In this document: positions 6,216 through 29,274 of the stretch, one piece after another | How positions within the stretch are numbered: position 1 is the first letter of the stretch | How the letters are laid out: the number at the start of each line of letters is the position of its first letter | NCBI GenBank assembly: GCA_003116975.1 | Contig: BGKB01000033.1 | Span: forward strand, 62,001-126,000 | Length of the DNA stretch: 64,000 nucleotides | Direction of reading: 5' to 3' | From: Aurantiochytrium sp. KH105 | Lineage: Eukaryota > Sar > Bigyra > Thraustochytrida > Thraustochytriidae | The notes under the pieces: generated by a model | Told to the model about the DNA's origin: nothing | Seen by the model: only the letters and a program-made list of their open reading frames with translations | Database searches by the model: none | Position numbers and translations under genes: made by a program

Positions 6216-6583
6216 CTCGTCGGCCGCCAGCGCAGCGTCTCTGCGCAGTCCTTCACGGCCGCGCGAGCGCTTCGTCTCTGGCGTTATTCGATCTCTCAAG
6301 GCGTCAGTCACGGCTTGACTTACCGTCAGAGTCGCCTTGTTTCTTCTTTCATTGTCCTTATTTGAAAGCAAATGGAAAAAAAAAATATCTTTGTCTAGTC
6401 TAATGTTGCAGGGCGAGAAACAACGAAATGCTTCAAGGTTTTCGACAAGTTTTCGACCACATTACTTTGACCACGTTGCGGTAGGCGGGGGGGAAGCTCG
6501 GCTAACTGTAAGCATACACAACGTCAGTGATCAATCAAACAGAAAGAGAAGGAAAGAAAGAAAAACAACATTGGAGAACCTTT
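6216..6583. other. Intergenic and DENN leader; possible 5' UTR intron
   Basis: This 368-base stretch separates two minus-strand genes. On the minus strand a consensus donor GTAAGT lies at 6323-6318. A CAG acceptor about 45 bases downstream, preceded by GTGACTGAC, would define a short leader intron ending before the DENN ATG at 6215. The only upstream ATG hits a stop within nine codons, so this would be a noncoding leader. No separate gene is seen. Confidence 0.4.
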
Positions 6584-7669
6584 TCATTCGAGTGTAAATG
6601 AGGACTCAAAGGCGACAAAGTCGTTTTGACGCTTGAGAAAGTTTGCGAGGGCTTGCTCTCCAGAGAGCGTGCCGAGGCCGTCAAAGGCAGGGAGATTTTC
6701 GGGGGCAATGAGACGTTGAATCGCCTCAGCATCGTTGATAATCTCAATACGCTCTTGCATCTTGCGGGTTAAAAAGACCTTGCACATCTTGATGAACATG
6801 CGCGTAAGCTTGTTGGCGTTGAAGAAAATAATTTTGCGCAGGCGAATGGGATACCCATGTTGATACATCCAGCTGAATTTCTGCTCGAAGCTGAGAGAAA
6901 AATTCTTCATGGAGATGCCCTTGCAGTTCATGAGAAAAACGAAGCCCGAATCAACCTCCTCGAGATTCACGGCAGATGACTGAAGGGTTGCGATGAACGT
7001 CACAGTCCCTGCCTGGAGGAGCTTCTTGTCCTTGAGCATTTTAGACGGATAGTAGTTGGATACAGAATTGTAGATGACAAGCCTGCCCTCACGATCTTCT
7101 CCGAGAGGTACCATGACTCCACCTGGCATCTTTTCCTCTGAAATATCAACAGCCTCCTCAATCGTAATTTGGTCGACTTCGTACTCCTTTTCAAGTTCGC
7201 GAATCAGCTTGATGCGATGCAACATCTTGCGTTGGTCACCCTCGCACGCGATGACAAGACGCACGGCCTCAAAATCGTTCCGCAACGTGAGGTTTTCCTT
7301 GACACAGTTTGCCTTGAGGAGCCGCACAGACTCCTTGACTTCGTCAGTGATGAGCGCACTGTCCTTTGCGGCGGTGGCACCTGCAGCGGCATTTGCCTCG
7401 TTCGGTGAGGCCTGTAGTTCCGATGCCGTAGGCGGGGAATTTGTCGTGGCCATGGTGGTCTCCGCCGACGGTTCGTTCGTTGGCTTGGTTGCAGCTTTGG
7501 CGCCGGCGACGTCGTCGCTGTCTTCGTCGGCTACTCCTTTGATGTAGGCAGCGTCTTCAGTCCTGCCTGCTGGCTTTGACGCCGGCGACGTTGACGTTGC
7601 TGCTGGAGTCGACGCCGCGCTCCCCTCCGCGCTCTCCTCCGCGCTGCTGATGACGGCTGGCTCGCTCAT
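6584..7669 (-). CDS. CRAL-TRIO (Sec14-like) lipid-binding protein
   Basis: This is a 361-residue protein. The open frame extends four codons upstream from a GTG, and the ATG at 7669 (MSEPAVISS) is the sensible start. Residues ~1-100 are Ala/Ser/Thr/Glu-rich and probably disordered. A helical N-lobe (VRLLKANCVKENLTLRNDF) precedes the CRAL-TRIO lobe, where GFVFLMNCKGISMKNFSL matches the beta-strand and helix of the lipid cage and FFNANKLTRMFIKMCKVFL matches the gate region of Sec14 proteins. The family binds and transfers phosphoinositides or hydrophobic ligands such as tocopherol and retinal. The ligand here cannot be read from sequence. The gene is divergent from the TRIC-like gene at 9130, about 1.46 kb away. 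Confidence 0.85.
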   Translation of the reverse strand: MSEPAVISSAEESAEGSAASTPAATSTSPASKPAGRTEDAAYIKGVADEDSDDVAGAKAATKPTNEPSAETTMATTNSPPTASELQASPNEANAAAGATAAKDSALITDEVKESVRLLKANCVKENLTLRNDFEAVRLVIACEGDQRKMLHRIKLIRELEKEYEVDQITIEEAVDISEEKMPGGVMVPLGEDREGRLVIYNSVSNYYPSKMLKDKKLLQAGTVTFIATLQSSAVNLEEVDSGFVFLMNCKGISMKNFSLSFEQKFSWMYQHGYPIRLRKIIFFNANKLTRMFIKMCKVFLTRKMQERIEIINDAEAIQRLIAPENLPAFDGLGTLSGEQALANFLKRQNDFVAFESSFTLE

Positions 7670-8440
7670 GGCGCTCCCCACGTGGTCAATTGAGATCTGG
7701 CGACTTGTGAATTATACTTTAGCCCTGCAGCTGAGAAAGAAAAAGCGCAAAGACGATGAAGACTTTTGCGCAACCAAACAACCCTAACCCAAGCCTAGCT
7801 TGCAACTAGCACGTCGGATTAATGGAAGAACCACGCCATCATCAGGCTAGAGTTGGTTGATTATTCATGGGGAGAGAATAGAGAGTCTTTCGCTTACTAG
7901 GCGCGTGTTTCGTGGCGGCCTTCGACTGCGAGGACTGGATTGCCATCAGACCTGGCCAGTAGTAAGCGGAACTTGGTGTGTGAGATTGATGTGAGAGAGG
8001 TCATCAATGGCACGTTCTCAGGGCCTACTACATCTACACTAGAATTCTTAGAACTTTCAGAATGTTAAGAAGAATCGGCGCAATCGGCATGAACCCGTAC
8101 TAGCCCTAGCTGGTCGGCTTAAAGCATCACATCACTCACATCGATGTGGCAAAAACACCGTCAAACCTTCTTCTCCCGTTGGTCTCTCCTCCATTCCGCT
8201 AAATCCAAGCTAGGGCTTTCGCCGGCCCTCTCAATAATTTCACTCTCGTCAGGCCAGATGACTGACCGTCACCATCAATCGCATCACGTCCTCCAGGGAA
8301 GTATCGCCGCGCCCGCCTGACCGTGAAATGAGTTCGCCCTGCCCTCAGATCATAGTCAGCTGCAGACTGCGGTCTGGCTGCTGCTGGCCGTCTGGCTGGC
8401 TAGCTGTTTGTCGGCTGCTGCTGCTGCTTCAAGTGGTTGT

Positions 8441-10933: not shown

Positions 10934-13678
10934 CTATTGAAGCGAACAAGTCGATTCCGAAGAATTATTGTCGCTATTGCCATTGGAGGCTGAGGATTGC
11001 CGCCAGCCCACACAGAAATTTCGATTGATCTTGTTGCTCGCAATTTTCAAGGTGTAATTGCTCGCGCTCCCACTCCACGGCTGAGAAAAGGCCGAAGTGC
11101 TCGCAAAATCCACAGACTCTGGATCGGCAAGCTGCAACGAGCTGCTTAGAAACAGCGTATGACCAGTGTCTTGCGCGAGTCCTCCGCCCGCCGCAATTCC
11201 CATGATGATGAGATTGTCGTCGTTTTGTGGATTCAATGAAGCAAAGTCAGGGACACCATCGTCGTTGCCGCCCGCTGCAGCCTTCTTTTGGAGTGACTTG
11301 GGCTTGGAGCCAAGGGAGGTGTCAATCAGGGTTGGAATGTCGATGAGCTCATTCGGTGAACTCATACCCAGTTGGCAGCACGGGTTGCGACCAAATCCAA
11401 TGCAATGCCCAAACGCAGTGCTTACGACCGTGTGCGCATCTCCAACAGCAATGTGACGTACAAGTCCAAGCGGTCCACCCTCAAAGCAAATCTCCTCGGG
11501 GCGATACGGGTCACCATCTGGGCGTCCAATGAGATCGCCATGGCCCCAGGTGTAAACATGCTGGTTTTTCCCCAAGGCCACAGAATGACTTGCACCAGCT
11601 GCGATATCCTTTGCTGCTGCCTTGAGAGGGACCTTGGTGGGGACAAAGATTGTTGCACTGCTCGTGCCCGTCACAAGTTCCGTCCCGAGGCCGAGCTGGC
11701 CGTGCTGATTATTTCCGCTGGCCAGGACAGTACCATCCGAGGTGAGGAAAAGGCTGTGACGCATTCCTGCAGCAACTCGAGTGATGTTGCGGCCGCGCAA
11801 GAGCATGACGCGTCGAGGTGCCCAGCACGCTTCTTGGTTGGCTCGTACAAACAGGATCTCTTGCGTGTCACGATCACTCGTCACTCTCTCTTCTTTTCCT
11901 CCTTCTTCGCCTTCTTCTATTTCGAGGCCCTCTGCACGAGAACGCTCGAGGCTTTCACCCGTCTGCGCGTCGATAATTCCCGTGACACAGTCGTCGAGAA
12001 GATAAGAGACGCCGTGCTCGGCAAACGGAAAGCGCTGGCCTTCATCAAGAACGCGCATCATCAGCTTGGACGCCTCCATTTGCGTGTCGCATAAACTCGA
12101 ATGATCAATGGCCTCTCGCGCAGCTTGTCGCGCCATACGAAGCCCCGCAAATGCAGTGCGTTGGTCCAGAAAGACATTATCACTGAGTTCCTGTAGCGTG
12201 ATAAAGTATGGTTCCCCGCTCGCAGATGCCATCACATGCCCAAGCTTTCCGTCCTCATTATCCGCGCCCCACGTCCAACAAGCCCCATTGCTCGAACAGC
12301 AGACCATGTGCTCTTTTCCGCAGGAAACTTGCACCAGACTCTCCTCTGACTCCAAGTCGAGCTCAATTTGTGTTGGCGAGCTCACATCCTCGAGGTCTTC
12401 CTTGCGGTTGGCACCAAGGCCAAGCCAAGGTCCCTGAGCTCCGAACGTAAAAACCAGCTTGTTTAGGCGCGCAGAATCCGTCCGGTGGCTTGCCAGCACG
12501 GCCGAAGATGACTCTCCACACGCAACAAAACCAGCGCGAGCAAATGTAGGCAGCTCAACGCGGCGAGGCGCGAGCTGTGAAGCAGATTCTGCCGTGGCGT
12601 CCAGCACGTAGCCCAGTCTTCCGTTCGAGCCCTTTCCAAACGAGAGAACCTGGCCTTCCCTTGTCAGAAGAAGCGTGTGAGAAGCTCCACATGCAACCTG
12701 AACGACCTGGAGTCCACAGAGAGGAGGAATGACCCTTGATTTCGCGGCGAATTGCTTTGCGCTTCCAAGACCGAGCTGTCCTCGGCGATTGTTGCCGCAA
12801 GCGAGAACCGCATAGGGGACAGGCTCGGCCCCATTTGGACAGAGAAGAATCTTGTCGCCGTGCTCGAGCTGTCGAATTGAAAGAACCTCATCGAGGCGAA
12901 GTCTGAACGAGAACATACGGGCCGCGAGGCTTTGAGGCCGATGAGGGCTTGCGCGCGGTGATTGTACATGTACGCTATTGTTGCTACTACTTGCTGCCAA
13001 GGTCGTCTTACCAACCTCTTTGTCACCGATGTCAAGACCCCAAATGACGCACGCATGTTCAGCGAGCTGCGAGAGGTTCCACGTTGACTGGACCATGACA
13101 ACGCGCCATTCAGGCGGACGTCCATTTCCGAGCGCAATCTCGAGTGCAAAGGCTTTATCCCGATCAGCTCCCAAAGGACTTCTTGTTGACTCTTTCGGCA
13201 ATGTGTGAGTCGCTAGAGATGGCAAGGTAGACGGTTGGGTGGGCGTAGCAGCTGGGTGAGCGGAAGATGCTGTCGACGGTGTCGAATCTGAAAAACTTGG
13301 TGAAGGAGGCGTACAAACGGGATGTGCTGGAGATGACACCGAATTCGAAGGGGCGGATGTTGACGGGCACGTTGTTCTTTGCCGAGACTCATGCTCTTCT
13401 TGGCGACCATTATTATTGGCTTCTGGGGCCATGGAGCCTTGTTGCGGAAGAGGAGCTTGGTACCTCGGTGCGAGTCCTTTGGTGTCTTTCACGTGCGATA
13501 GAGAACTAGCGCGTTGACCCGATTGCGTCGGGCCAGACGTTGTGTGCACGGGTGTCGTTGTCTGGGCACCTCTTACTTCGGGGCTGGGCGTCTCGGGTTG
13601 CGCGGCAGCCTCGTCGTCCATTTGTTGCGGCGGAACGAGCCCCGTCTCTCTTCGATTTTCAGGCGCGCCGGCGGTCAT
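10934..13678 (-). CDS. RCC1-repeat protein with disordered N-terminus
   Basis: This is a 914-residue protein. The frame extends upstream to a GTG at 13789; the first ATG is 13678 (MTAGAPENRRE). The first ~180 residues are Pro/Ser/Thr/Gln-rich. Residues ~180-290 hold a possible beta-grasp fold (WRVVMVQSTWNLSQLAEHAC ... LDEVLSIRQLEHGDKILL). RCC1 blades follow, recognisable as ACGNNRRGQLGLG, VACGASHTLLLTREGQVLSFG, GKEHMVCCSSNGACWTWG, AAGMRHSLFLTSDGTVLASG and AAGASHSVALGKNQHVYTWG. A ~150-residue insert sits in the middle of the blade series. RCC1 propellers act in GTPase exchange, ubiquitin ligation or chromatin binding. Nothing here shows which, so a Ran exchange role should not be assumed. Confidence 0.85.
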   Translation of the reverse strand: MTAGAPENRRETGLVPPQQMDDEAAAQPETPSPEVRGAQTTTPVHTTSGPTQSGQRASSLSHVKDTKGLAPRYQAPLPQQGSMAPEANNNGRQEEHESRQRTTCPSTSAPSNSVSSPAHPVCTPPSPSFSDSTPSTASSAHPAATPTQPSTLPSLATHTLPKESTRSPLGADRDKAFALEIALGNGRPPEWRVVMVQSTWNLSQLAEHACVIWGLDIGDKEVGKTTLAASSSNNSVHVQSPRASPHRPQSLAARMFSFRLRLDEVLSIRQLEHGDKILLCPNGAEPVPYAVLACGNNRRGQLGLGSAKQFAAKSRVIPPLCGLQVVQVACGASHTLLLTREGQVLSFGKGSNGRLGYVLDATAESASQLAPRRVELPTFARAGFVACGESSSAVLASHRTDSARLNKLVFTFGAQGPWLGLGANRKEDLEDVSSPTQIELDLESEESLVQVSCGKEHMVCCSSNGACWTWGADNEDGKLGHVMASASGEPYFITLQELSDNVFLDQRTAFAGLRMARQAAREAIDHSSLCDTQMEASKLMMRVLDEGQRFPFAEHGVSYLLDDCVTGIIDAQTGESLERSRAEGLEIEEGEEGGKEERVTSDRDTQEILFVRANQEACWAPRRVMLLRGRNITRVAAGMRHSLFLTSDGTVLASGNNQHGQLGLGTELVTGTSSATIFVPTKVPLKAAAKDIAAGASHSVALGKNQHVYTWGHGDLIGRPDGDPYRPEEICFEGGPLGLVRHIAVGDAHTVVSTAFGHCIGFGRNPCCQLGMSSPNELIDIPTLIDTSLGSKPKSLQKKAAAGGNDDGVPDFASLNPQNDDNLIIMGIAAGGGLAQDTGHTLFLSSSLQLADPESVDFASTSAFSQPWSGSASNYTLKIASNKINRNFCVGWRQSSASNGNSDNNSSESTCSLQ

Positions 13679-14122
13679 CGATGCGCTGTCGCCATGCAAA
13701 GGTCTCTCTTGTTTTACCTCCTGTTCTGCTGTGCTGCGCAAGAGCAGTCCGCCAGACGTAGCGTCGCGTCTGTGGGCTTGTCTGCTCACCCTTGTTTGCC
13801 GATTGTCTGCCTCGTCTGCGCGCTTGCTCGACCACCTCCAGAGCCTCTCAGCTCTCTGCCTGAGTGAGCTGGATCTACAAAAGAAAAAGGGTCTTTACAA
13901 ACTTGTCTTCGCCGACGCCTCAGAGTCTTACGCTTGCCGTGCGAATGCACAAGACGATTCGTTGCTTTGAGTTTTGGGGGTTCTTGCAGTGCCGCGGAAG
14001 GGTGATTTGCTACTACAACACGTAGTATAGCCAGGTCGGAAAACAAGGCATGGAGTCATAGTATTGCACCATCCATGAGGAAACTCTCAACTCGTGCTTT
14101 TGTATTGTTTTTAGTTTGGTTT
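13679..14122. other. Spacer between RCC1 and AspRS genes
   Basis: These 444 bases hold the leader of the RCC1 gene and the 3' flank of the AspRS gene. The upstream open frame of the RCC1 gene begins with GTGAGC just after an AAGG, which could be a splice donor of a leader intron, but no exon is identified. I see nothing else. Confidence 0.4.
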
Positions 14123-15991: not shown

Positions 15992-17226
15992 CCTCTCCTC
16001 CTCTCGCTCGCCCCTCCCCGCGCGCCCGCTCTCCCTCCCGCTCGCGCTCGCGCTCCCGCTCCCGCTCGCGCCCGCGCTCTCCTCCTCGCCGTGCTCCGGG
16101 CCCGCGAGATCCTTCTTTGCCGCCGCGCCGCGCAGGCTCGCCGCGCGAAGTGGCACAGGCACGGAGAGAGAGAGAGAGCGCCGGGGGATGGATACAGACG
16201 CGCCCGCGCAGCCACCCAGCCCAGCCCAGCCCAGCCCGGCCCGCCCAGCCCGGCCCGGAGGCAGCGGCGGCCGGGGGCGCGGCGCGGCGTTCCGCGCCCG
16301 CGGGCTGCGGCGGGCTGCGGCCCCGAGGGAGGGAGGGAGCGAGGGAGCGAGCGAGGGCCCCGCGCGCGGGAGCGGAGAAGCGAAGGGGAGCGAGCGCTGC
16401 GACGCGCGATAAGCAAGTAAGCAGGAAAGAAAGAAAGAAAGAAAGAACGCGCACAAGCAAGGAACGCCGCGCGCACAAGAAGACTGAAGAACCTCGAGAG
16501 AACAGTCGAGAAAACTGAACAAAAGGAAGGAAAAAGAAGGGGAAAAGAGGGGGACGCGCGCCGGCGGTCCCGGGCGATGCCAGGCAAGGGTGGCTGGCGG
16601 GCTGACTTGGCGCCGCACCGCACCGCACCGCGCAGCTCTTCGATTCGCAGTCGCTGCGGCTGATGAGGAAGGGACCTTTCCTTTCCGGGCTCTCCTGCCG
16701 GGAGCGGGAACGCTGCAGAGACGGCGCGCAGAACCTCTTGCAGATGAGAAGAAGACTTGGGCGACTGTTCCAAGCAGGATGCCGCGAGGGGGGGGGGCAT
16801 GCTGCGCGCTGGCGTGGAAAGAAACCCGGGGGGATGCAGACGCAAAGGTGTCAGAGGTTCTTAAAAGGTCTGTTATGCTCCTCCCAGGGGTATGTTGCAC
16901 GTTACGTTGTACCGACTCGAGTATGGCATCTTATCAACGGGAATAGAAAAGACGCATAAACACCCATGTTGCCCCGCAATAGGTATCTCCGAGATTCCCC
17001 GGAGCTCAACCACCGCGAGCGAGCGTTGATTGATCATGAAGAAGACGAGACCACGGCCGAGACCTAGACCCCGTTCGGGGACGCGAGCTGAGAGAGAGGT
17101 CGCTGGCCGCTGCCGCGCGGAACCTGGCAGGAAACCAGCAGAGACGCTGCGCGTCGGGATTCTCTTCCTTGTGCGATCGTGCCTGCCTGCGCCTCGGTCG
17201 TCGCGCCTGGACCAGAACCCGCGAGC
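15992..17226. other. Divergent GC-rich promoter region, AspRS and importin alpha
   Basis: This 1.2-kb region separates a minus-strand and a plus-strand gene. It contains CCCAG/GCCCG-like repeats (about 16210-16260), a GAGGGAGC stretch (~16325), an AAAGAAAG repeat (~16425-16445) and a run of G at ~16789. Long frames on both strands come from GC bias and overlap one another. None has protein-like character. Confidence 0.6.
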
Positions 17227-19230
17227 ATGAATCTCCTGGACGGCGTCCACTTCGACAACCTCGAGAGCGCGGGCGGCGAGGACACGTTGGGCTCGAGCAA
17301 GAGCCTCGGCCGCGCCTCAAGCGGCGGCTCGTTCCGAAAGAGCCTCGATGTCGCAGAGGCGCGCGAGGGCCGCATCCAAAGGTCCGTCGAAATTCGCAAG
17401 CGGCAGCGCGGGGCCACCGCGCAGGCGAAACGGAGACGCGCGCTCGAAAAGCAAGAGCGTGCCGAGGGCGCAGCGCAAGATAGCTACACCGCAGACCAAG
17501 TGAGCCAGGCCCTGCATGACCTCGATGTCCCGGAAAACACCGCTCGAGCAGTGGCGGACCTCCGCGCGTGGCTCTCGCTCGCGCCTCTCCGGGCGTCGTG
17601 CGAACCTGAGCTTGCCCAGCAAGAGCACGACAGGTACACGCATAGCGACGTTGCCACACAGCTTTGCATTGACCGAGGCATGGTCGAGAAGATGCTGCCA
17701 CTCCTCCGCGTCGACCCCAGGGCAGATGACGCCGAGGCCCGTTTCGACCTTGCCTTCAACGCCACTTGGTGCATTACAAACATTGCCACGGGCACGGCCG
17801 AGCAAACGCAGGCAACACTCTGCGCCGTTCCCGCGCTGACAACACTCCTCAATCGGGGCCCGCGCAAGGTCCGGGACCAGGCAGCGTGGGCCCTGGGGAA
17901 CATGGCTGCCGAAAATCAGAGCGTGCGTGAGGAGCTCATTCGAGTCGGCGTCATTCCTCCATTGGTGATCCTTCTTCGCGAGCCTCACAGTCCCGAGGCC
18001 ATTCGCGTAAAGCGCACGGCTGCATGGGCGCTCTGCAACCTTGCGCGCGGCGACCAGACCTCGGGCAAACCCTTTTTCTCTGCCGCGGCGCATCTCGCCC
18101 TTGTCGAAATCCTCGAGTCATACACTGACCAAGCTCTTCACGAAGGCTTCCAGTCTGACGCCGGCGCTCTCATTAGTGAAGTGCTTTGGACCCTGACATT
18201 TCTGAGCGCCAAGGAGCCGACTCTTTGCATCATTCTCGTGCACCAAAAGATCCTCACACACCTTGTTCGTCTCTTCACAGCCTGTAAAGGCGAGCTTTCG
18301 ATCTGCATTCCTTCGCTGCGGGCTCTTGCAAACCTGATTCCGCTGCGCCTCGAGAGTCCGCCCGGCCGCGAGGCATCGCTCGTGACAGCCGTGTGTCAGC
18401 AGCCTGGGTTTCTTGACACGCTGCAGTCGATGATGGTCGAGGGAGAATCTGCTGCAAGAGTCAGAGAAGCGATCTGGACCGTCGCAAACCTCTTTACGCT
18501 TGGGCTTCAAACGAAATCAGGCGGCCCGCTCTCACAGGACGAGACCGCGGTCGTGCATGATCTTATGTGTCGTTTCGTAGCGCCTCTCTGCGTCTTTTTC
18601 ACAAAGTACACGTCAGAGTTTATGTTACCGGCGTCAACAGCGCTTCTCAACCTCGTCAATCGAGAAGACGTCTCTGTGCTCATTAATTTAATTAACGAGC
18701 CCACCTCACCGCGCGTGCTCGACGTCTTCATTTCTCTCTTGCAAGAGCGAGATATCGATATTGTGTACCGTGCGCTTGATTTTGTTGAAATGGTCCTTGC
18801 TCGTTTGAGCAATCCTTTTGCTGCGGCACGTTTGGGCGGGCGCTCGGGGGTGCGTCTGGTCATGGACTATGAGGGCATTGAAGCACTCGAGCATTTGGAG
18901 ATGCGACAGCTTCCAGCAGCTCATTCAAACCTTTGTGCACGCGCACACCGTCTCGTTGACCGTTTCTTTGGAGTGGACTTTGAAGAAGCCGAAGAAGCCG
19001 AAGCGATGCATCTTCCGGAGCAAGGCGCCAACATGTTCAAATTTCCCGCATCCTCAACACCATCAACGCAACCGAACTCTTCACCTGCATCAGCGGGGCG
19101 GGGCGCTCACCTTTTACGACCCGCGTGGCTTGCACAGCAGCAAGGCCAGCAGCAAATGCAGCAAATGCACACAGACAGCAAACAACGGACTCTGCCTGAA
19201 TGCGGCTTCAACGCCAAAATGGAAACCTGA
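17227..19230 (+). CDS. Importin alpha (karyopherin alpha) family protein
   Basis: This is a 667-residue nuclear import adaptor. The frame opens upstream from a GTG, but the ATG at 17227 (MNLLDGVHFDN) is the first. Residues ~36-80 form a basic importin-beta-binding segment (GRIQRSVEIRKRQRG, AQAKRRR). ARM repeats follow, with the W-x3-N ladder that holds nuclear localisation signals: FNATWCITNIATG, AAWALGNMAAENQSVR, AAWALCNLARG, EVLWTLTFLSA and EAIWTVANLFTLG. Canonical importin alpha is about 520-550 residues; this one has a longer N-terminus and a C-terminal Ser/Pro/Gln-rich tail (QQQGQQQMQQ). Given the missing Asn in some repeats it is a divergent member. It is not certain that it is the main housekeeping paralogue. 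Confidence 0.88.
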   Translation: MNLLDGVHFDNLESAGGEDTLGSSKSLGRASSGGSFRKSLDVAEAREGRIQRSVEIRKRQRGATAQAKRRRALEKQERAEGAAQDSYTADQVSQALHDLDVPENTARAVADLRAWLSLAPLRASCEPELAQQEHDRYTHSDVATQLCIDRGMVEKMLPLLRVDPRADDAEARFDLAFNATWCITNIATGTAEQTQATLCAVPALTTLLNRGPRKVRDQAAWALGNMAAENQSVREELIRVGVIPPLVILLREPHSPEAIRVKRTAAWALCNLARGDQTSGKPFFSAAAHLALVEILESYTDQALHEGFQSDAGALISEVLWTLTFLSAKEPTLCIILVHQKILTHLVRLFTACKGELSICIPSLRALANLIPLRLESPPGREASLVTAVCQQPGFLDTLQSMMVEGESAARVREAIWTVANLFTLGLQTKSGGPLSQDETAVVHDLMCRFVAPLCVFFTKYTSEFMLPASTALLNLVNREDVSVLINLINEPTSPRVLDVFISLLQERDIDIVYRALDFVEMVLARLSNPFAAARLGGRSGVRLVMDYEGIEALEHLEMRQLPAAHSNLCARAHRLVDRFFGVDFEEAEEAEAMHLPEQGANMFKFPASSTPSTQPNSSPASAGRGAHLLRPAWLAQQQGQQQMQQMHTDSKQRTLPECGFNAKMET

Positions 19231-19596
19231 TGCACGAAGTTATTTCGGTCTGCTCGGGGCGGGGCGGGGCGGCCAAGGCACAATAGTAAAATTCTAGATT
19301 GTAATGGACCGCTGATGGAAAAGACACCTTCAGGCTGGTCCTCCGCTGGAAGTGACTTTCTTTCCGTTTTCTATTTGTAAGGCTCTGGAATACCGTTGAT
19401 GGGACTATTTACCATGGCGTTCAAGTTTTCCGATCTTTCTCCTTGTTTGTTTTCGTTTCTTTCCCCCGAGGCATTGGCGGCAAGCAGTCAGTCATTCTGT
19501 GGTGTTGCAGTGTGTGAGTGCGTGCGTGCATGCGCGTGTGCGTGTGCTCGTAGTAGGCGTATACAAAATGACAAAGTAGTAGTATACTATCAACTA
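19231..19596. other. Spacer with GGGGC repeats, carboxylesterase promoter side
   Basis: These 366 bases follow the importin alpha stop. A GGGGC repeat (about 19256-19271) is a candidate GC-box or G-quadruplex. The frame of the esterase stays open upstream to an ATG at 19399, but that section encodes Cys/Ala dipeptides from a GTGCGTGC repeat and is unlikely to be translated. Confidence 0.5.
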
Positions 19597-21432
19597 ATGG
19601 GTTTACACGGAGCACTCGTCGCGACAGCCTTCGCAGCAAGCTTGCTTCTTGTCCATGGCGACCCTGGCCGAGCGGGCCTTGCAGCCCTTGAGCAGCAGAA
19701 CTGGCGAGATGAGCAGGTCGCAACGGGCTTCTGGGTGGGCAGCGACCATGACCTCGTTTCTGATCGTTTACAAAAGGACGACGCCAGCGTGAATGACGCC
19801 GATCACAACCCCTGCCGCGCGCGTCTTGCCACCCAAGGCGAAGTCGTTGGCACCTGGTTCGAGACCTTTCCTTCGTGCACGTACAAGGGTATCCCGTACG
19901 CGCGCGCCCCTGTCGGTCAGCGAAGGTTTGCTCCTCCCGAACCTGCCAAAGCCTTTTCTTCAGAACCCTTTTACGCTGCTCAATTTGGGCCTGGGTGCGT
20001 TCAAGCGTGTAAATTCGGGCAACCAGATTTTACGTGTCCCTCGACAACGTCCGAGGACTGCCTCTCCGTGAACGTTTTCACGCCGCAGAGCGTAAAGACA
20101 CTTCGTTCGCAGCAAGCTTTACCCGTTCTTATTTTCTTTCATGGCGGAAACTATGTTGCTGGCTCGGGTGGCGTGAACCTGTATCACGGATCACGATGGT
20201 CTCACGAGCAGAGCGCAGTCGTCGTGACGCTCAACTACCGGCTCGGCGTCCTCGGAGGACTCTACACGAAGCGTGGCGGAATTCAAGGAAACTTTCAGCT
20301 GCAAGACCAGAGGCTTGCCATGCAATGGGTCCAGACCAACATTGCTGCCTTTGGCGGCGATCCCCAGCTTGTCACGATTTTTGGCCAGAGCGCAGGCGCA
20401 TTTTCCGTGGCTGCACACCTGGCAAGCCCTCGGAGTTGGCCCTTTTTCCTGCGCGCTGCTGCGATTTCTGATCCAATTGCCCTGCCCACAGAAACAACAG
20501 CAAAGTCAGAGCAACTCAGCAAACGCTTTGTCAACGCCGTGGGATGCGGCCACATCGATGAGGTTCGCGAGGAAGCATGCCTCCGGAATCTCACCACGGA
20601 GACAATTCTCACTGTCCAAGAGAAAACCGCTTTCCCCACATTTCCCGGAATGATGTTGCACAAGTTCATGCCCTGGACCCCTGTTGTCGATGGCACCGAG
20701 CTTCCCTTCTCGCCCATGGAGGCGGCTGCTCGCGGCAAGCTTGCCTCCGTTCCCATGTTAATTGGTTCCGTCGCAAACGAGTCCGTCGCTTATATTTGGG
20801 ACGTGTCGCCCGACCCCATGCCCAAGCTCAAATACGAGCTCTTCATCGAGGCTATTTTCGGCCCGCTTGATGCACATCGCGTCTTTCATCAATACGGGCC
20901 ACCTGACCAGGCAATGACTCGCGAGGGCGACGTGCGCAAATTCCTTACGCAAATCGCCACAGACTACATATTTACGTGCTCGATTCGCGCCTTTGCCAAG
21001 CACGCTGCCCAGACGAATCCAGTCTTTGTCTACTATTACAACCATCTCCCGTCATTCAACCACTTTATGCAGGATGGTCTTTCGCCCGGGTGTGAGCACG
21101 AGATCTGTCATGGGTGTGACCTTGCCATGCTCTTTAATACCATGTACCTTGCGCGGAATGAAAGTCACCAACCAGCCCCGGGGCCGACTCCTGCAGAGCT
21201 GATTCTGAGTTCGCAAATGCAGACTGTTTGGACCAACTTTGCGCGCACAGGAAACCCAAATTCGCCACGAAAGTTGCCGCGTCAATCGGACTCCCCGGAG
21301 GCTCTCTTTTTCCCAAAGTTCAACGTCTCACGTCAGGGAATGCTCACGATGCAAGTGTCCTCGCACCCTCAATACGACTTTCGTGAGGTTGTTTGCGATA
21401 TGTTTGACAAAATTGGCTATGAGGTCAACTGA
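19597..21432 (+). CDS. Secreted type-B carboxylesterase/lipase
   Basis: This is a 611-residue alpha/beta hydrolase that cleaves carboxylic esters. I choose the ATG at 19597 because it begins a clear signal peptide (MGLHGALVATAFAASLLLVHG); an in-frame ATG at 19399 would bury it. The family landmarks are present. EDCLSVNVFTP lies at ~153-163. The oxyanion-hole segment FFHGGNYVAGSG is at ~180. The nucleophile elbow is GQSAGAFS, with Ser265. Glu395 lies in GSVANESVAY, and His505 lies in CHGCDLAMLF. The catalytic triad therefore appears intact. Many Cys suggest an oxidising compartment. No C-terminal anchor or ER-retention signal is visible. Acetylcholinesterase-like specificity cannot be assumed. 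The gene converges with the giant channel gene, 153 bases away. Confidence 0.92.
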   Translation: MGLHGALVATAFAASLLLVHGDPGRAGLAALEQQNWRDEQVATGFWVGSDHDLVSDRLQKDDASVNDADHNPCRARLATQGEVVGTWFETFPSCTYKGIPYARAPVGQRRFAPPEPAKAFSSEPFYAAQFGPGCVQACKFGQPDFTCPSTTSEDCLSVNVFTPQSVKTLRSQQALPVLIFFHGGNYVAGSGGVNLYHGSRWSHEQSAVVVTLNYRLGVLGGLYTKRGGIQGNFQLQDQRLAMQWVQTNIAAFGGDPQLVTIFGQSAGAFSVAAHLASPRSWPFFLRAAAISDPIALPTETTAKSEQLSKRFVNAVGCGHIDEVREEACLRNLTTETILTVQEKTAFPTFPGMMLHKFMPWTPVVDGTELPFSPMEAAARGKLASVPMLIGSVANESVAYIWDVSPDPMPKLKYELFIEAIFGPLDAHRVFHQYGPPDQAMTREGDVRKFLTQIATDYIFTCSIRAFAKHAAQTNPVFVYYYNHLPSFNHFMQDGLSPGCEHEICHGCDLAMLFNTMYLARNESHQPAPGPTPAELILSSQMQTVWTNFARTGNPNSPRKLPRQSDSPEALFFPKFNVSRQGMLTMQVSSHPQYDFREVVCDMFDKIGYEVN

Positions 21433-21585: not shown

Positions 21586-24500
21586 TTATTCAGTAACAAA
21601 GTCGAGAACGGAGCGACGATGAATGCTTGAGAGTAGCTTTTCGTATTCAGGCGAAGTCTGGAATTGCGGAAGTATCTCCCTCTCAAGTGTCGCGGTGGCA
21701 GCTTCGTAGGCCTCGTCAAAAGCTTCTGGAGCAGGATCCATCTCTACTCGTTGTACTGTGCCATTTGCGACCTCTGGCCTGATGTTGATGGCCTCGTCGG
21801 CGTCAGGCACGATGAATCGACTCACAATGGTTGCAGCGCGTTTGGCCCGCATCACCTCGTTATTCGGGGATCGGCGAAAGTCATCCACAAGCTGGATAAA
21901 GTTCACCGTCTCTGCCATGAAGCGCCTTTCGAGAAATGCGCGCAAATGCTTTGCATCTTCCTTGTTTTCCAAAAGTGCCTTTGCAGAGCTATAAAGACCC
22001 CCGACCGGCGGACGCAGAGCGATAAATTCTTCGTACACCATCTGATCGCAGATCAACGCGTCGCAAAAGCTGCCCGTGACTAAAGTCACTGGCGAAGCTT
22101 CACCCCACCCAACACTGGGGAGGAGCAAGCCTGGGTTCCAAAGCTCAGCGCTCGCCTCGTCTATCTTCAGTTTACGCTGCGTGAATGACGATTGAAGGGA
22201 CATCCGTTTGCGGAGGATATTGCGCGAGGACCCGAGCTTCCGCAACTGCTCTTTCGAGAGATCTCGAGCTGCGAACGCGAGCACACGTCCGCGAGCAACA
22301 AAAACGAGTCGGAGGACACGGGATCCGGAGTTGTAGAGCTTCTCCATGGGAATGATTACCTCGTTGCGTAGCGAGCGGGAAAGCGAGACAAGCAGGCCAT
22401 CCCTCAAATCGCGCAAGTTCTTGCACTTTACTGCGTTTGTGCGCAAGGTGCGCAAACCAAGAAACTCCTTGACAGCATTGTTCAGAGAAAAGGGCAGCTC
22501 GCGAAAACAGTCGCTGTCCTTCACAGCCATCTCTTCGACCCGGTACGCATAATAGGTGCGCACCAAGCCCGTAATGCGGCTTGATAGTTGCATATGGTCC
22601 ATGAGCTGGAGTGCTGCGTCTCGGTATCGGTTTCCAGCAGCCGCGGTGGAATCCTCGATATCAATGATTGACACCAGTGTCGATGTGATGCCTGCATCGC
22701 AAAGAAAGGAGCCCACGACCATGACAAAGATTGCAAAGATGCGCTCCGCGATCCCGATGACCGGAACATTCCCGAAGCCAATTGTTGTCACCGTGTAAAA
22801 AGTAAAGTAGATAGAATCAATGTAGGCACGGCCAATATTCGCTTGGCAATCCTCGCTCATGGTTCGGCAAGGCCAGTTGCTACGAGTGCTTATGAGAACT
22901 CGTGCGTACCCGCACGCCAGCCAATGTGACACAAGGAGCACCGTGGCAACAATCTTGATCAGGTGCCTGTAGCCACTTGTGATCTGGATTCGAGCGGAAG
23001 CATCGATGGCATTGTCAAAAATTGTCCAGCATCGTGGAATATGTCGAAGCCAGAGGAGGCGCAGCAAACGCAGCAGAAGATAGACGTGCAAAGGGCTGCT
23101 CGACCCGGCAGATTCTGCCACGGCGAGACCAATAAGATCAAATGGCAAGGTGGCAATCAGGTCGATGGCAAAACCAAATGACCGGAAGGAGGCTCGTCGA
23201 ATGTCCCTCCATTCGGAAAGCACACGGCCGTTCTTGACCCGAGATACAAGCATGGCGTTGAGCCCTACAAAGCACCAGAGAAAGAGATCCATCTGCAAGC
23301 TTATACCAATGTAGGCTCCAGATGTGTCCTGCATGGCAAAGGCGTCCGTTGCCGACATCATGGCCCAAAGAGGTACCAAAATGCCAATCTCAATGATGAC
23401 ATAAAAGAGAATGGCGTGAAAGAGAACGTAGTTGAAGTGGCCAGGCATGAGGACGTAGTGATCGAGATTAAATCCCCTTTTCCGACCTGTACTCTCGTCC
23501 TGCTCCGTATCTTGAAACATCTTGGTAAGCTTGCGCTTGTCGAGATTCTTCTTGGTGTGCTCAAGTTGGCTCGGCTTGGCCACGAACTGCCTGAGCTCCT
23601 CTTCAAAGAAACTGACAAGATGAGGATTGTCAACGAGGGCGTTTGCCACGGCGCTGCGGTCGAGAATAGCAACTTCGCACGATTCCTTGCACCTCGCTGA
23701 AGCAGGGTAACCGCCGTCGCGAGCACGCAAGAAGCCATCGATACCAACGACGCCTCCCGGGCTCTCGACCTGGTAAAAGACGCGTTGTAAGTCTGGCGAG
23801 ACGACCTCCACAGAACCCTTGAGAAGAAAGAAAAGTTGATCTCCAGTTTGTCCAGCATGATAGAGAATCGATTGTCTCCTGAAGCGGTCAAAACGAATGG
23901 AATGAGTTACAAAGCGCCACACACGCGAGGGCCCAAGCACGGGAGTCCTTCGGAGCGTCTGCTCGCCGATGAGCTCGAGAGCGACCTGTTGTCGCAGCGG
24001 TCGGCTGAGGTAGCTGAGAATATGGTCATCGTTGACGCCCTTTTGGCGCATCCAAGAGCGAAAGACATAGGAGCGAATACTTGACCGTAATTGAGGTGAA
24101 AACTCGCGCATCGAAGCGTAGGCAGAAATGAGGTCGGACTTCTTTTGGTACAAAATGGACGTGAGATCTGACTGCGCCACGATATCCTCGAGAAAGGCAA
24201 TAATCACCGAGTAGAGCAAGCCGCCAATGATGAGAATGCCAATCGTGTAGAGAATCTCCTCCTGAGATACGGGCACTACGTCTCCAAAGCCGACGGCTGT
24301 AGTTGTTGCCACTGCAAAGTATAGAGCATTAACATAGTCATCGAGCATGTCATTGTCTGCCTCAACGTTTTGCTCGCAGACCCATGAGATTCTTCCTGTA
24401 CTGTTGCTGCATTCAATTTCGTAATTTGCCGCAATTCTGTAAAATAGACAGCCCGCCCAGTGTGCGACGAGCATAAAGACAAAAATGAGCTTGGCAATGG

Positions 24501-27500
24501 TCAGCAGGCTCTTTCTCGCCTGATTTTTAACGTGACTGCCAATTGAAGCCAAGTGGTCAAGGGTTCGTGACCCGCGAAACAGCTTGTTCAGGCGAAAGAG
24601 CGGATTGTGCGAGGCCCCGGCCATGAGCGCCACGAGACCGATCGGGAGTGCGCTGAGTATGTCCGTCACGCCAAAGAGGGAACGCAAATAGGCGGGGCGA
24701 AACTCGGCAGGATTACTTAGCCGCTCCCCTTGCACCGTCTCGAGTTCGAAGAACCGTACACGTAAAACAACGTCGAGAATTAAAAGAATGTCAACGCAGC
24801 TATCAATGATGAGAGCTGTCGGACCGGGCTCATATTCATTGACAAACGCGAAGCGCACTGGAAAAGAGACGTAGATCCACAACAAGGAGAACAACATGCA
24901 TCTCTTCCATGTTGCCTGGAAATGCGAGTCGAGGCGGATGACTCGAGGCGCTTTGCGCTTATCTTCAAGCATCGTGTCGTTCCCGGCCATTTTCGCGAGC
25001 TTTCCTCCCCGACGAAGGTTTGAGGCGACCGACTCGCTCTTGCCTGCGCTCAAGAGCTTTGCCTCGGCCGCTTTGATCGATTCGCCATCTTGCGGGAAAA
25101 CTAGCGATAGGTGCCGCACAGCGCGGCCCGACAAGACCCAAACCTCTGCGACGGTGGTTGCGATGAAACGTGTCTTTTCCTTGTCAGCCTTTGTTACAGA
25201 AGCTGTTAGTGCGGCAGACGGTGAACCTGCAGCAGACGAAAAGATGTCACCATTCCTTGCGTTTGCAACGTCAAGCTCACGTACGCTCTGACTAATCTCC
25301 GCAAAGTTTTGCTCGCCAAAACTTTGACCTTCACCAATGTTGCTTAGCTTGATGTCGCTTCGATCGCGCACCTCGATGCTGCCGGTCGCAAGAAAAAACA
25401 GCTCCCATCCGGCGTTAACATCGTCGATGACTACATCACCAGCACTGATGATCCGGAAGTCGAGCAGGGCACATGCTTCCCGGACAAAAGCTTCAGAGAC
25501 GTGTTCAAAGAGCTTGGATGATCGCACGGCAGCTCCTGCAAGATCGAAGACGAGCTGCAGACGCACATCGGCTCTCAGAAAATCTGATTCGTGGGACCGC
25601 GGACAAGAGGTCACGTCGCGGCCGGCAATTTGCTCCCGAATTCGATCCCAGAAACCTTTGTACACCGCTCGAATGCTGCTTGCAGAGCGAAGCAAATCTG
25701 CCGATGCGAGTGCCTCTTCGCTGTCAAGCGCTTGGCGCTGCCCGCGGTGTCCGAACTTCTCAGTCTGCTTGCTTTCCGAAACGCCGAGCACGCGCTTGAG
25801 CACGAGGAGGTCTTTGGCCTCCACATGATGCAAGTACAGCATGATTTTCTCTTGCAGTTGGGGTGAGATTTTGCGGTCGAGCAAAAAGGCCATAACACAG
25901 GTCCGCTGGTGGGAAATGTTGTTGTCAGAGAACTCAACGTCTTTGAGCAAAGTTCCGATGAAAGATACAAGGCACGAGTAGATGGTGACACCGATAATCG
26001 CGAGCGCCGAGGTGATGAGAGAGTCACGCGCTGAGGTGGGTTCATAGTCTCCAAAACCAGTCGTTGTCATTGTTGCCAACGACCAGTACATGCCCTTTAC
26101 ATAGCGCTCGGATGTGCTGTCATCCTCGGCGTCGTTAAGAATGGTCATTCCATAGCACGCAATGAGATGCGCCCAGAGGAGAAAGTAGACGCCAAGGCGA
26201 GCAGAGAGGAAGGGACCTTTGCCATTTTGATTGTCCGTCTCCTCAGCGATTCTTGAGGTGGTTGCAGACCTTCCCGCCAACGTCCCTGTAGCAGCGGCCT
26301 CATCAGCGCGGACGGCCCGCATCTGTCTTTGGCGTTGACGCCAAGCTGCGAAGTGTGAGCCGAGGCTGTCAGTGATTGAACCAATGCGAGAAAGTCGAAT
26401 GAGAAAGGGAACCCTCATGAAGACAGCAAGACGCTTGTGCTGCGCGTCGCCCGAAATCATGAGTCCAAGACTCACGAGAGAAAGAAACATGAGCACGACT
26501 TCAGAAAAGATTTCCATCATCCCAATAAATTGTGCGCGGCGCCTTGCCATCTTTGCGTGGTAGTTGGTGAGCGCTTCTTGCTGTGAGGACCACGCGATTG
26601 CAGAAAGGGATACCTGGGAAGAGGTGATCGACGAGCGCTTGCCGCTCGTAAAAGCAGACGATAAGGCGCTATTGCGGCGTCTCGTTTGATCCCGCGAATA
26701 CGAATCTGATCCGCGCGAGTTGCTTGACGTTTGCTGCTCGACTTCGGCGATGAAAAGCTGCGGGCGCAACGTCCAATACGCAAGAAAGATCGTATCTCCA
26801 CAGAAGGCTCCAAGCGCGGTGAGACGTGTAAGGTTCGAAAAACCTGAGGTTCCGTCGATAATCATTGTGGCGAGATGTATTGGCACAAAGATACCATACG
26901 AGGCAAGAATCACTGCAAGCGCACAATCCCAGAGAAAGTCCGCTCGAGAGCCGTGCGCAAATCGAAATCTAACGAGCCATCGAGCCACAAATCCGTTGGT
27001 GTCTCCTCTTTTCTCATTCAAATCCTGTTGCATGATGGCTGCAATTTTAGATCTTTTCTTGACGGTTGTCGTCTCTTTTTTCTTGTTCAGCGAGAGTCTT
27101 AGTTTGGCGGCCATGTCGGCACTTGCCATTGCCTCTGATATTTTTTTCCGACGTGACTCTTCGTCCGAAAAGCTTTGTTTCTTCTGGGTGACTGACTCGG
27201 AAGCGACGACTTCGCTTTGACCCTTTTCTCGAGCGTTTTCAGCGGCGTCATGATTGTTAGCCATGTCATCGCCATCGCCATCGCCATCGCCATCGCCGTC
27301 CTTGTTGTTGTCATCTTCGACTTTTCCTTTTCGTTCTTCACCTCCGTCATCATCGTCGTCGTCGTCGTCGTCGAAGGCGAGAAGAGAGGTATAGTTGCAT
27401 TCTGCATCGATCTGGTCGACAACGCGATCGTCGAGCTCAAGGGGGCCACCTTCTGTAGCTGCTGAAGAAAACGAACTTGCTGTTGCTGTCTCGGGTATTT

Positions 27501-29274
27501 CGGACGGATCATCTTTTGGAGCAAGTTTAGCGATACGACGCGCCTCCATGGCACGCATAACTCGCAGAGAGGTCGACTCCATTCCCCATTCGGGAAAGAG
27601 GAGGGCCATGCGGCGAAAGTCGACATAGGTGATGAAGACAAGCTCGCAGCGAGTGACTGCAACATAACGTGGCGCTGGACTTTGCAAGATGTCAAATAGT
27701 CGCAGTGCGCCGATGGTCGCTCCGGGCATGAGCAGGTCCGGGTAGTTCTCGGCAATTTCCTGCGCAAGATCATTTGGCACGTCGGTGGCATGAGGATCCA
27801 TGCCGGGTTCTCCCCATAGCATTGCGGAGGAGGCAGTGAAACTGCGCTCAACAAATGGGTTGGGCCCGCCGCGGAACGAGCTACGCCGCCTTGACATTGT
27901 CGCCATCGCAGTGCCTGGTGCACTTTCTTCCGTTGCAGTGTTTTGCCGGAACTGAGATGTCGCCCGAGCACGAAGAGATCTTGATTTTGATGGGGCGCTG
28001 GGAGGCATTTGAGCGAGTGGTTGACGCGAGGTGCTTCGTTTGGCGGCTGTCCCGTCGACCATGAACCACATGACGCCTGGACGATAGGAGATAACGTTCC
28101 AAGGCTCGCGAAGTGTACGTCCAACTTCGAAAATAGAAGGCTCCATTTTGTCGACGAGATAGTAGATGGCGCGCCTGCAAGGGTCGGCAGATCTCGGGAG
28201 GCGAAATATTGGCGTCTTGAGCAATGCACGGGCCTTGAGCTTGATGATGTTGCGCGTCAAGATTGGGGGAAGGTCATCAAGAACTTTTTCCCGAGTAAGG
28301 CCTTTGCTGCGCGCCCACTGGCGGGCAAGATCCCGGCGTGCGATGCGCATCGAGGCATTGGGAAAGGATTTCTGCGCAAAGAGGGCCTCGACGCTATCCA
28401 GTGTAAAGCGGTGGGCGGCCGGGGTCGAGTCAAGGTTCACGAGAAATGAGGTCATGTTAGCAATCATGTACGCCATGAGAAAGACACCGGCGAGACAGAC
28501 GACGAGGGCAAGCGCGCGCTCCTGAAGAGCCTCTGGAGCAATTCCTCCGTAGCCGACGGTCAAAAGTGTCTGCCACACAAAGTAGATTGACCGGGAGATG
28601 CGCAGCATGGCCGGAGAGCTTGGGTCCTCGATCTGACGCTGCGAGTTATCGTCTCGGATGCCATCGCCGTCAATCCATGATGTGCCGTTGGGAGCAGCTT
28701 CCCCGAGAGCATAGTAGCTGCAGGATGCGAGAGATTGCATGACCGCCACGAGAATGGCAAGCCATCCGAGTCGGATGAGTTGCAGCGGCGGCGTGGGAAA
28801 GGTATTTTTCACAATGACGAGAAAATTTGCCCAGTAGTCTCCGAACACGCGATGGAAACGCGCCAGAAAGGCGAGCATGGCAAGTGTCGTAAGAGTGCGG
28901 TTGCCCTGGGCTGCATAGAAGATGATTCCGAAGGGCAAGCTTGAAATGAGGATGGATGGGTTTCTCACTTTCTTCGCAAAGGTTCGAATGCTGAATTGTG
29001 CGCTTGAGAGGGTTTCGAGAGCAAAAGTGCCCGCAGTGAAGCTACTTACAAATGCTGCGAGTAGCATGGCCGTGTGATTGTCGGCGCCAAATACGACAAC
29101 ATTCGGCACCACGGCGCTCGCGATGACGTACGCTACAAGGCAGACGGCGCCGAGGTTTGCCAGTCGCGGAACACTTGCATCATCTTCTTGGGGAATGAGT
29201 GTTTCAGCATCGCTGGCTTCGCTGGATGGTGCCACGGCCCGCGATGAGCGGGCTGTGTACTTGCGCCATGACAT
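21586..29274 (-). CDS. Four-repeat CNGK-like ion channel with C-terminal RGS domain
   Basis: This is a 2,562-residue protein from ATG 29274 (MSWRKYTARSSR) without introns. Four consecutive 6-TM pore modules are visible. Their filters are TVGYGG (239-244), TTGFGD (1071-1076), AVGFGD (1660-1665) and TIGFGN (2164-2169). Each is followed by a C-linker and a cyclic-nucleotide-binding-like beta roll. The rolls of modules 2 (GWELFFLATGSIEV, GEGQSFGEQN) and 3 (GDQLFFLLKGSVEVV) are the clearest. Module 1 carries a ~100-residue insert in its roll. Charged low-complexity linkers (Asp runs at 635-643, Asp-Gly at 660-670) separate modules 1 and 2. Residues ~2441-2550 form an RGS-like domain (HLRAFLERRFMAETVNFIQL, EAFDEAYEAA, FQTSPEYEKLL). 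One chain therefore supplies a whole pseudotetrameric pore, as in CNGK/tetraKCNG channels of sperm. The RGS addition is unusual. GYG/GFG filters suggest K+ selectivity. Confidence 0.9.
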   Translation of the reverse strand: MSWRKYTARSSRAVAPSSEASDAETLIPQEDDASVPRLANLGAVCLVAYVIASAVVPNVVVFGADNHTAMLLAAFVSSFTAGTFALETLSSAQFSIRTFAKKVRNPSILISSLPFGIIFYAAQGNRTLTTLAMLAFLARFHRVFGDYWANFLVIVKNTFPTPPLQLIRLGWLAILVAVMQSLASCSYYALGEAAPNGTSWIDGDGIRDDNSQRQIEDPSSPAMLRISRSIYFVWQTLLTVGYGGIAPEALQERALALVVCLAGVFLMAYMIANMTSFLVNLDSTPAAHRFTLDSVEALFAQKSFPNASMRIARRDLARQWARSKGLTREKVLDDLPPILTRNIIKLKARALLKTPIFRLPRSADPCRRAIYYLVDKMEPSIFEVGRTLREPWNVISYRPGVMWFMVDGTAAKRSTSRQPLAQMPPSAPSKSRSLRARATSQFRQNTATEESAPGTAMATMSRRRSSFRGGPNPFVERSFTASSAMLWGEPGMDPHATDVPNDLAQEIAENYPDLLMPGATIGALRLFDILQSPAPRYVAVTRCELVFITYVDFRRMALLFPEWGMESTSLRVMRAMEARRIAKLAPKDDPSEIPETATASSFSSAATEGGPLELDDRVVDQIDAECNYTSLLAFDDDDDDDDDGGEERKGKVEDDNNKDGDGDGDGDGDDMANNHDAAENAREKGQSEVVASESVTQKKQSFSDEESRRKKISEAMASADMAAKLRLSLNKKKETTTVKKRSKIAAIMQQDLNEKRGDTNGFVARWLVRFRFAHGSRADFLWDCALAVILASYGIFVPIHLATMIIDGTSGFSNLTRLTALGAFCGDTIFLAYWTLRPQLFIAEVEQQTSSNSRGSDSYSRDQTRRRNSALSSAFTSGKRSSITSSQVSLSAIAWSSQQEALTNYHAKMARRRAQFIGMMEIFSEVVLMFLSLVSLGLMISGDAQHKRLAVFMRVPFLIRLSRIGSITDSLGSHFAAWRQRQRQMRAVRADEAAATGTLAGRSATTSRIAEETDNQNGKGPFLSARLGVYFLLWAHLIACYGMTILNDAEDDSTSERYVKGMYWSLATMTTTGFGDYEPTSARDSLITSALAIIGVTIYSCLVSFIGTLLKDVEFSDNNISHQRTCVMAFLLDRKISPQLQEKIMLYLHHVEAKDLLVLKRVLGVSESKQTEKFGHRGQRQALDSEEALASADLLRSASSIRAVYKGFWDRIREQIAGRDVTSCPRSHESDFLRADVRLQLVFDLAGAAVRSSKLFEHVSEAFVREACALLDFRIISAGDVVIDDVNAGWELFFLATGSIEVRDRSDIKLSNIGEGQSFGEQNFAEISQSVRELDVANARNGDIFSSAAGSPSAALTASVTKADKEKTRFIATTVAEVWVLSGRAVRHLSLVFPQDGESIKAAEAKLLSAGKSESVASNLRRGGKLAKMAGNDTMLEDKRKAPRVIRLDSHFQATWKRCMLFSLLWIYVSFPVRFAFVNEYEPGPTALIIDSCVDILLILDVVLRVRFFELETVQGERLSNPAEFRPAYLRSLFGVTDILSALPIGLVALMAGASHNPLFRLNKLFRGSRTLDHLASIGSHVKNQARKSLLTIAKLIFVFMLVAHWAGCLFYRIAANYEIECSNSTGRISWVCEQNVEADNDMLDDYVNALYFAVATTTAVGFGDVVPVSQEEILYTIGILIIGGLLYSVIIAFLEDIVAQSDLTSILYQKKSDLISAYASMREFSPQLRSSIRSYVFRSWMRQKGVNDDHILSYLSRPLRQQVALELIGEQTLRRTPVLGPSRVWRFVTHSIRFDRFRRQSILYHAGQTGDQLFFLLKGSVEVVSPDLQRVFYQVESPGGVVGIDGFLRARDGGYPASARCKESCEVAILDRSAVANALVDNPHLVSFFEEELRQFVAKPSQLEHTKKNLDKRKLTKMFQDTEQDESTGRKRGFNLDHYVLMPGHFNYVLFHAILFYVIIEIGILVPLWAMMSATDAFAMQDTSGAYIGISLQMDLFLWCFVGLNAMLVSRVKNGRVLSEWRDIRRASFRSFGFAIDLIATLPFDLIGLAVAESAGSSSPLHVYLLLRLLRLLWLRHIPRCWTIFDNAIDASARIQITSGYRHLIKIVATVLLVSHWLACGYARVLISTRSNWPCRTMSEDCQANIGRAYIDSIYFTFYTVTTIGFGNVPVIGIAERIFAIFVMVVGSFLCDAGITSTLVSIIDIEDSTAAAGNRYRDAALQLMDHMQLSSRITGLVRTYYAYRVEEMAVKDSDCFRELPFSLNNAVKEFLGLRTLRTNAVKCKNLRDLRDGLLVSLSRSLRNEVIIPMEKLYNSGSRVLRLVFVARGRVLAFAARDLSKEQLRKLGSSRNILRKRMSLQSSFTQRKLKIDEASAELWNPGLLLPSVGWGEASPVTLVTGSFCDALICDQMVYEEFIALRPPVGGLYSSAKALLENKEDAKHLRAFLERRFMAETVNFIQLVDDFRRSPNNEVMRAKRAATIVSRFIVPDADEAINIRPEVANGTVQRVEMDPAPEAFDEAYEAATATLEREILPQFQTSPEYEKLLSSIHRRSVLDFVTE

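Follow-up and report, generated by a model that had tools for sequence, protein, structure and literature searches.

We identified in the window (the whole stretch of 64,000 nucleotides that was analyzed) a single gene encoding a four-module channel of the CNBD-channel superfamily that ends in an RGS domain. Our confidence in this anatomy is very high: each module comprises a six-transmembrane (6TM) unit with a pore, a C-linker, and a CNBD-like roll, the roll being weak in module 4 and, when its paralog is left out, in module 1, and the RGS domain follows the fourth roll (Table 1). The presence of a C-terminal RGS domain, which the original prediction had missed, makes this an unexpected fusion of an RGS domain onto a four-module channel. 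We found no such combination in one protein in the open-access literature, with searches that were partly unspecific.

Table 1. Features of the window and of related channel genes of the genome. Positions are those of the window unless a locus is named.
Feature	Position	Strand	Residues or length	Remarks
DENN gene	1923-6368			
CRAL-TRIO gene	6584-7678			
RCC1 gene	10934-13786			
Importin-alpha-like gene	17182-19230			
Whole coding frame	21586..29274	(-)	2562 aa	ATG start, stop included; no internal stop
RGS domain	21634..21981	(-)	2432-2547	Pfam RGS E 1.3e-14 in the whole protein, 1.2e-16 alone
Module 4	22000..23499	(-)	1926-2425	S1-S6, pore, C-linker, highly divergent CNBD-like roll
Filter 4, TIGFG	22771..22785	(-)	2164-2168	
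Module 3	23500..25014	(-)	1421-1925	best conserved 6TM-CNBD module; cassette without Glu and Arg
Filter 3, AVGFG	24283..24297	(-)	1660-1664	
Module 2	25015..26994	(-)	761-1420	S1-S6, pore, C-linker, CNBD-like roll; ~40-residue insert within the cassette
Filter 2, TTGFG	26050..26064	(-)	1071-1075	
Linker 1-2	26995..27549	(-)	576-760 (~185 residues)	acidic low-complexity stretches; read from sequence
Module 1	27550..29274	(-)	1-575	S1-S6, pore, C-linker, CNBD-like roll; insert ~412-505 interrupts the roll
Filter 1, TVGYG	28546..28560	(-)	239-243	
bZIP gene	48971-50611			
C49/C90			2859 aa	four-module; aligns collinearly with the whole window protein, 24% identity; RGS-terminated
C104/C113	C113 = L011:842-7744		2563 aa (C113)	four-module; C104 slice ends at its edge
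C59/C214			2360 aa	four-module CNBD frame
C64/C40	C64 = L018		1696 aa	two-module CNBD-channel

The channel frame is a single real gene, because the other haplotype has the same frame under purifying selection. The genome comprises 76 Mb in 367 contigs, with most matches in near-identical pairs, which we read as two separately assembled haplotypes. The copy at C110:48825-56573 encodes a protein of 2560 amino acids, of which 2474 (96.6%) are identical to those of the window protein. The two copies have an overall dN/dS of 0.164, indicative of purifying selection, and the third codon position holds 176 of their 256 differences; once loops and inserts are left out, dN/dS is 0.118 (p 8e-48). By part, the values are 0.066-0.30 for the eight module parts (0.125-0.30 for the four 6TM parts), 0.048 for the RGS domain, and 0.46-0.48 for linker 1-2. 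Two loops of module 2 are near neutral, residues 845-905 (0.88) and 985-1022 (1.18). With a narrow donor rule, in-frame GT-AG candidate introns occur in two of the six inserts tested, the cassette insert and linker 1-2, and in neither neutral loop. The uninterrupted frame of the original prediction is thus borne out, and a division into two separate genes is ruled out by the open frame and the selection in both haplotypes and by the collinear paralog C49. The G+C content of the window is 0.49-0.68.

Four pore signatures had been predicted at residues 239, 1071, 1660, and 2164, and the filters lie exactly there, all four with a potassium-type signature (GYG/GFG). The proposed domain search of the whole protein with Pfam gave four stretches of Ion_trans, four of Ion_trans_2, three of cNMP_binding, and the single RGS. 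Searched module by module, Ion_trans_2 was over the cut-off in all four and Ion_trans in three (module 2 scoring 23.1 against 25 bits). In this per-module search, cNMP_binding was over the cut-off in module 3 only; modules 2 and 1 had sub-threshold matches (E 0.0083 and 0.2, respectively), and none was listed for module 4. A profile of the other modules scored window modules 1-4 at 136, 126, 314, and 207 bits, whereas shuffles (200 each) never exceeded 4.6 bits; the module scores are slightly favourable, as the window rows were taken out after the alignment was made. For the roll part of the profile they reached 9.3, 39.4, 52.8, and 13.9 bits, with shuffles at 3.2 or less; without C49 in the profile, the module 1 roll drops to 7.8 bits versus 4.7 for shuffled sequences. 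In profile-profile comparisons, the roll had probabilities of 97.9, 96.4, 98.9, and 57.9% when paralogs were included and 46.7, 96.7, 97.7, and 59.8% with the window sequence alone, while seven controls gave at most 0.6%. The C-linker and nucleotide-binding-like roll said to follow each pore are therefore confirmed to different degrees: modules 2 and 3 have a clear roll, module 1 a supported one, and module 4 a weak one. With a mean pLDDT of 58.7, the structure model of module 1 is weak, and the roll in it leans on bacterial CNBD-channels because the alignment included them. The best-matching channels are KCNH5 for module 3 (E 1e-34), SthK for modules 1 and 2, and LliK for module 4, and the repeats are only 14.1-22.2% identical to each other.

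To classify the nucleotide-binding cassettes, we called intact those with Glu or Asp, plus Arg, at the columns of the HCN1 cassette Glu and Arg. Module 1 lacks the Glu and has an Arg candidate, and modules 3 and 4 have neither residue. Module 2 keeps the Glu, has an Arg candidate, and is intact by this rule, a call that we discounted, as a matter of judgement, because the Arg comes from the ~40-residue insert that interrupts the cassette; the rule also scores module 1 of C49 as intact. An uninterrupted canonical nucleotide cassette is found in none of the four window modules. By the column rule, 4 of the 16 four-repeat modules are intact; the counts are 6 of 8 for the genome's single-module channels and 6 of 7 for bacterial channels. 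Absent cassettes do not prove that the ligand is lost. Of the cyclic-nucleotide-type channel originally proposed, membership in the superfamily stands, whereas nucleotide gating is not supported, given the lack of an uninterrupted canonical cassette. The S4 segments of modules 1-4 have 2, 5, 4, and 4 Arg or Lys residues, compared with 4-8 in single-module channels and 1-5 in other four-repeat modules, and these counts suggest weak voltage sensing, clearest for module 1. The sequence points to a channel that probably selects for potassium and does not sense nucleotides in the standard manner.

The RGS domain covers positions 3-117 of the 117 of the Pfam profile (61.6 bits against a cut-off of 23.9) and matches the solved RGS1 and RGS5 chains (E ~2e-8). 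The residues that we take to be the counterparts of Glu87 and Asn128 in RGS4 numbering are kept, and that of Asn88 is presumably replaced by Thr. Of 46 G-alpha matches in the genome, 27 are over the cut-off, i.e., around 14 genes as haplotype pairs, so that possible partners of the RGS domain exist; RGS itself occurs at 84 places. The G-alpha matches C314:13060-14091 and C245:49750-50781 have one internal TGA in both haplotypes. Besides the domain's own haplotype copy, the nearest RGS in the genome is that of C47 (24% identity, E 8e-5), in a protein of 663 amino acids that carries two cNMP domains. Such kinship would fit a link to nucleotides instead of one to G-alpha. By match coordinates, the genome has at least four proteins where one to three cNMP-binding domains are directly followed by an RGS domain (C7/C119, C70/C181, C33:268k/C47, C10/C81). 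One conceivable origin of the window gene is that a roll-RGS unit was joined to a channel.

Frames were built at 26 loci among the Ion_trans matches listed (at least 151), leaving out long four-domain frames that resemble other cation channels. This revealed at least three further four-module CNBD genes, each as a haplotype pair (Table 1). The C-terminal RGS of C49 is weak (E 1.6e-7); C113 and C59 have four Ion_trans stretches each and no RGS by Pfam. C113, which keeps both Glu and Arg in modules 2 and 3, combines these canonical cassettes with an asymmetric pore: its third filter is VVVIG, which is non-potassium and was found by eye, and its first is GLG. The two-module C64/C40 falls among the HCN-like channels with support 95 and represents a separate tandem duplication. 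By best solved match, C54 is EAG-like and C39 HCN-like, and thus ordinary single-module channels coexist with the four-module ones. The 3331-aa frame of C140/C30 (C140 = L043), once a candidate channel, was rejected since it reads as IP3-receptor-like.

To place the modules, we built a tree from 36 modules and channels, with no CNGK sequence and with 7 of 80 bacterial and archaeal loci (L056 was left out, as its filter motif was not found). Its branches are long, which makes deep groupings uncertain. Modules 1-4 of the window protein and of C49 pair by position (support 81, 91, 100, and 98), and the four-module plan is thus older than the split between the two genes. All 16 four-repeat modules separate from the other sequences with support 76. 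A single clade of the window modules was rejected at an AU p of 0.005, and with it a tandem duplication confined to this gene. A grouping of the four-repeat modules with KCNH1/2, C215, C276, C54, and C49b (AU p 0.725) was not rejected, with low support for alternatives, nor was one with HCN1, C39, C106, C238, C185, and C64 (AU p 0.247). No close relatives were confirmed in viral contigs.

According to the accessible text of a 2020 survey (PMC7576140), four-repeat CNBD-channels occur in metazoa and choanoflagellates, and two-repeat ones in oomycetes and dinoflagellates. Like the CNGK/tetraKCNG channels of sea urchin, fish, other metazoa, and choanoflagellates, the window protein has four 6TM-CNBD repeats in one chain and GYG or GFG in every repeat (4/4). 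These two parts of the CNGK plan originally proposed hold, but membership in CNGK is unproven: the repeats of CNGK are nearly identical, with short and equal linkers, in the accessible text of PMC6259924, whereas those of the window protein are 14-22% identical, with long inserts, a long linker 1-2, decayed cassettes, and the RGS domain, in a host that is probably of a different eukaryotic supergroup. The accessible text of PMC4749565 describes sea urchin CNGK as gated by cGMP through its third CNBD alone, whereas the third cassette of the window protein lacks both Glu and Arg. It also describes a zebrafish four-module channel, DrCNGK, that has four CNBDs but is no longer gated by cyclic nucleotides and responds to intracellular pH; there, the Arg is missing from repeat 2 and the C-linker of repeat 3 contains an insert, and the other repeats look canonical. 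This pH gating sets it apart from the window protein, and that text makes no mention of an RGS domain. Two-repeat protist channels share tandem CNBD-channel modules and dissimilar repeats with the window protein, but have two repeats rather than four, and RGS is not mentioned in the accessible text. The KCNH family (EAG/ERG) is closest to module 3 by sequence, has the GFGN filter of module 4, and has a roll without canonical cassette, but its members are single-module and without RGS, and modules 1, 2, and 4 score best elsewhere. The 7TM-RGS proteins (AtRGS1, Naegleria 7TM RGS) are membrane proteins with RGS at the C-terminus, although their membrane part is receptor-like and not a channel. 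In the accessible texts, 7TM-RGS are established RGS-bearing membrane proteins (PMC9283941), and channels directly controlled by G proteins are also established (PMC12799613).

We give about an even chance to a reading where the RGS tail links a potassium channel to G-alpha, and where cyclic nucleotides no longer set the gating, or do not mainly set it. The four 6TM units of one chain would fold round a single pore as a pseudotetramer, with potassium selectivity predicted from the four filter motifs, and the CNBD-like rolls would form an intracellular gating ring. With decayed phosphate-binding cassettes, this ring would probably lack the usual response to cAMP or cGMP, as in EAG/hERG and zebrafish CNGK. 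Present once in each channel and placed right after the fourth roll, the RGS domain may bind activated G-alpha. The channel would then act as a local effector of G proteins, accelerate their GTPase activity, or do both, and a G-protein signal would open it and hyperpolarize the cell. The coupling to G-alpha is supported because RGS occurs at more than one locus (also in C49/C90), and weakened by the poor RGS match of C49, by the absence of RGS from C113 and C59, and by the presumed change of Asn88 to Thr.

Fairly unlikely, in our view, is that the protein is still a cyclic-nucleotide-gated potassium channel where one module, most likely module 2, binds cAMP or cGMP, and the RGS tail only ends nearby G-protein signals. 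The Glu, the Arg candidates, and the intact call of module 2 point in this direction, as do the 37 matches to cyclase domains in the genome, the recurrent cNMP-RGS pairs (by coordinates), and the sufficiency of one CNBD in sea urchin CNGK (accessible text of PMC4749565); against this stand the absence of an uninterrupted canonical cassette from all four modules and the fact that modules 1 and 4 alone barely match the CNBD profile. It seems improbable that the gene and the CNGK genes of animals and choanoflagellates are true orthologues, whether the gene was kept from an early eukaryote or acquired by transfer. Near-identical repeats and short, equal linkers (accessible text of PMC6259924) are not what we found, even if the four-module plan, the filters, and one roll per module (accessible text of PMC4749565) are common to both. 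In CNGK, repeat 1 is closest to 3 and 2 to 4 (accessible text of PMC7576140); neither pairing is a split of our best tree, which lacks CNGK sequences, but neither is rejected (AU p 0.245 for 1-3 and 0.308 for 2-4).

Improbable to much the same degree is a membrane scaffold that presents the RGS domain and does not work as a channel, some of its modules being non-conducting. The potassium signature of all four filters and the purifying selection on all four 6TM parts argue against such loss of function, while the charge-poor S4 of module 1 (2 Arg or Lys), the strong divergence of the modules, and the non-potassium third filter of the paralog C113 would agree with it. That the frame is an artefact, joining two or more genes or reading through an intron, is highly improbable: the neutral look of the two module-2 loops and the candidate introns in the cassette insert and linker 1-2 would favour it, but those loops contain no candidate intron under the narrow donor rule, every module is under purifying selection, the frame is open in both haplotypes, and the 2859-aa paralog is collinear.

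Four different four-module genes in one microbial genome, two of them RGS-ended, would imply that single-chain potassium channels have arisen or persisted outside metazoa and choanoflagellates as well. An RGS domain fixed covalently to a channel would tie heterotrimeric G proteins directly to membrane potential in a protist, and the gene set would be natural material for studying how unequal modules, four to a pore, work together. Tentatively, and with more doubt than conviction, we suggest a class of asymmetric single-chain potassium channels where the ancestral nucleotide sensor was retired in favour of a built-in G-alpha receiver; the RGS domain would couple G-alpha to the gate and switch the G protein off, making receiver, channel, and timer one unit. 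A flagellate stage of the host is plausible from the IFT46 gene in the genome, and the channel may have a role in motility or chemotaxis. Together with the PfaD-type genes, which serve as a lineage marker, the G+C content of the window, and the long uninterrupted frames, IFT46 suggests that the host is probably a labyrinthulomycete. Were it a holozoan, the wider range of four-repeat channels would no longer hold, whereas the fusion with RGS would.

The DENN, CRAL-TRIO, RCC1, importin-alpha-like, and bZIP genes of the window are ordinary neighbours. A carboxylesterase gene (19399-21432, plus strand) converges tail to tail on the channel gene. Elsewhere in the genome, long frames contain two PfaD-type PUFA-synthase genes, with four places scoring over the cut-off.
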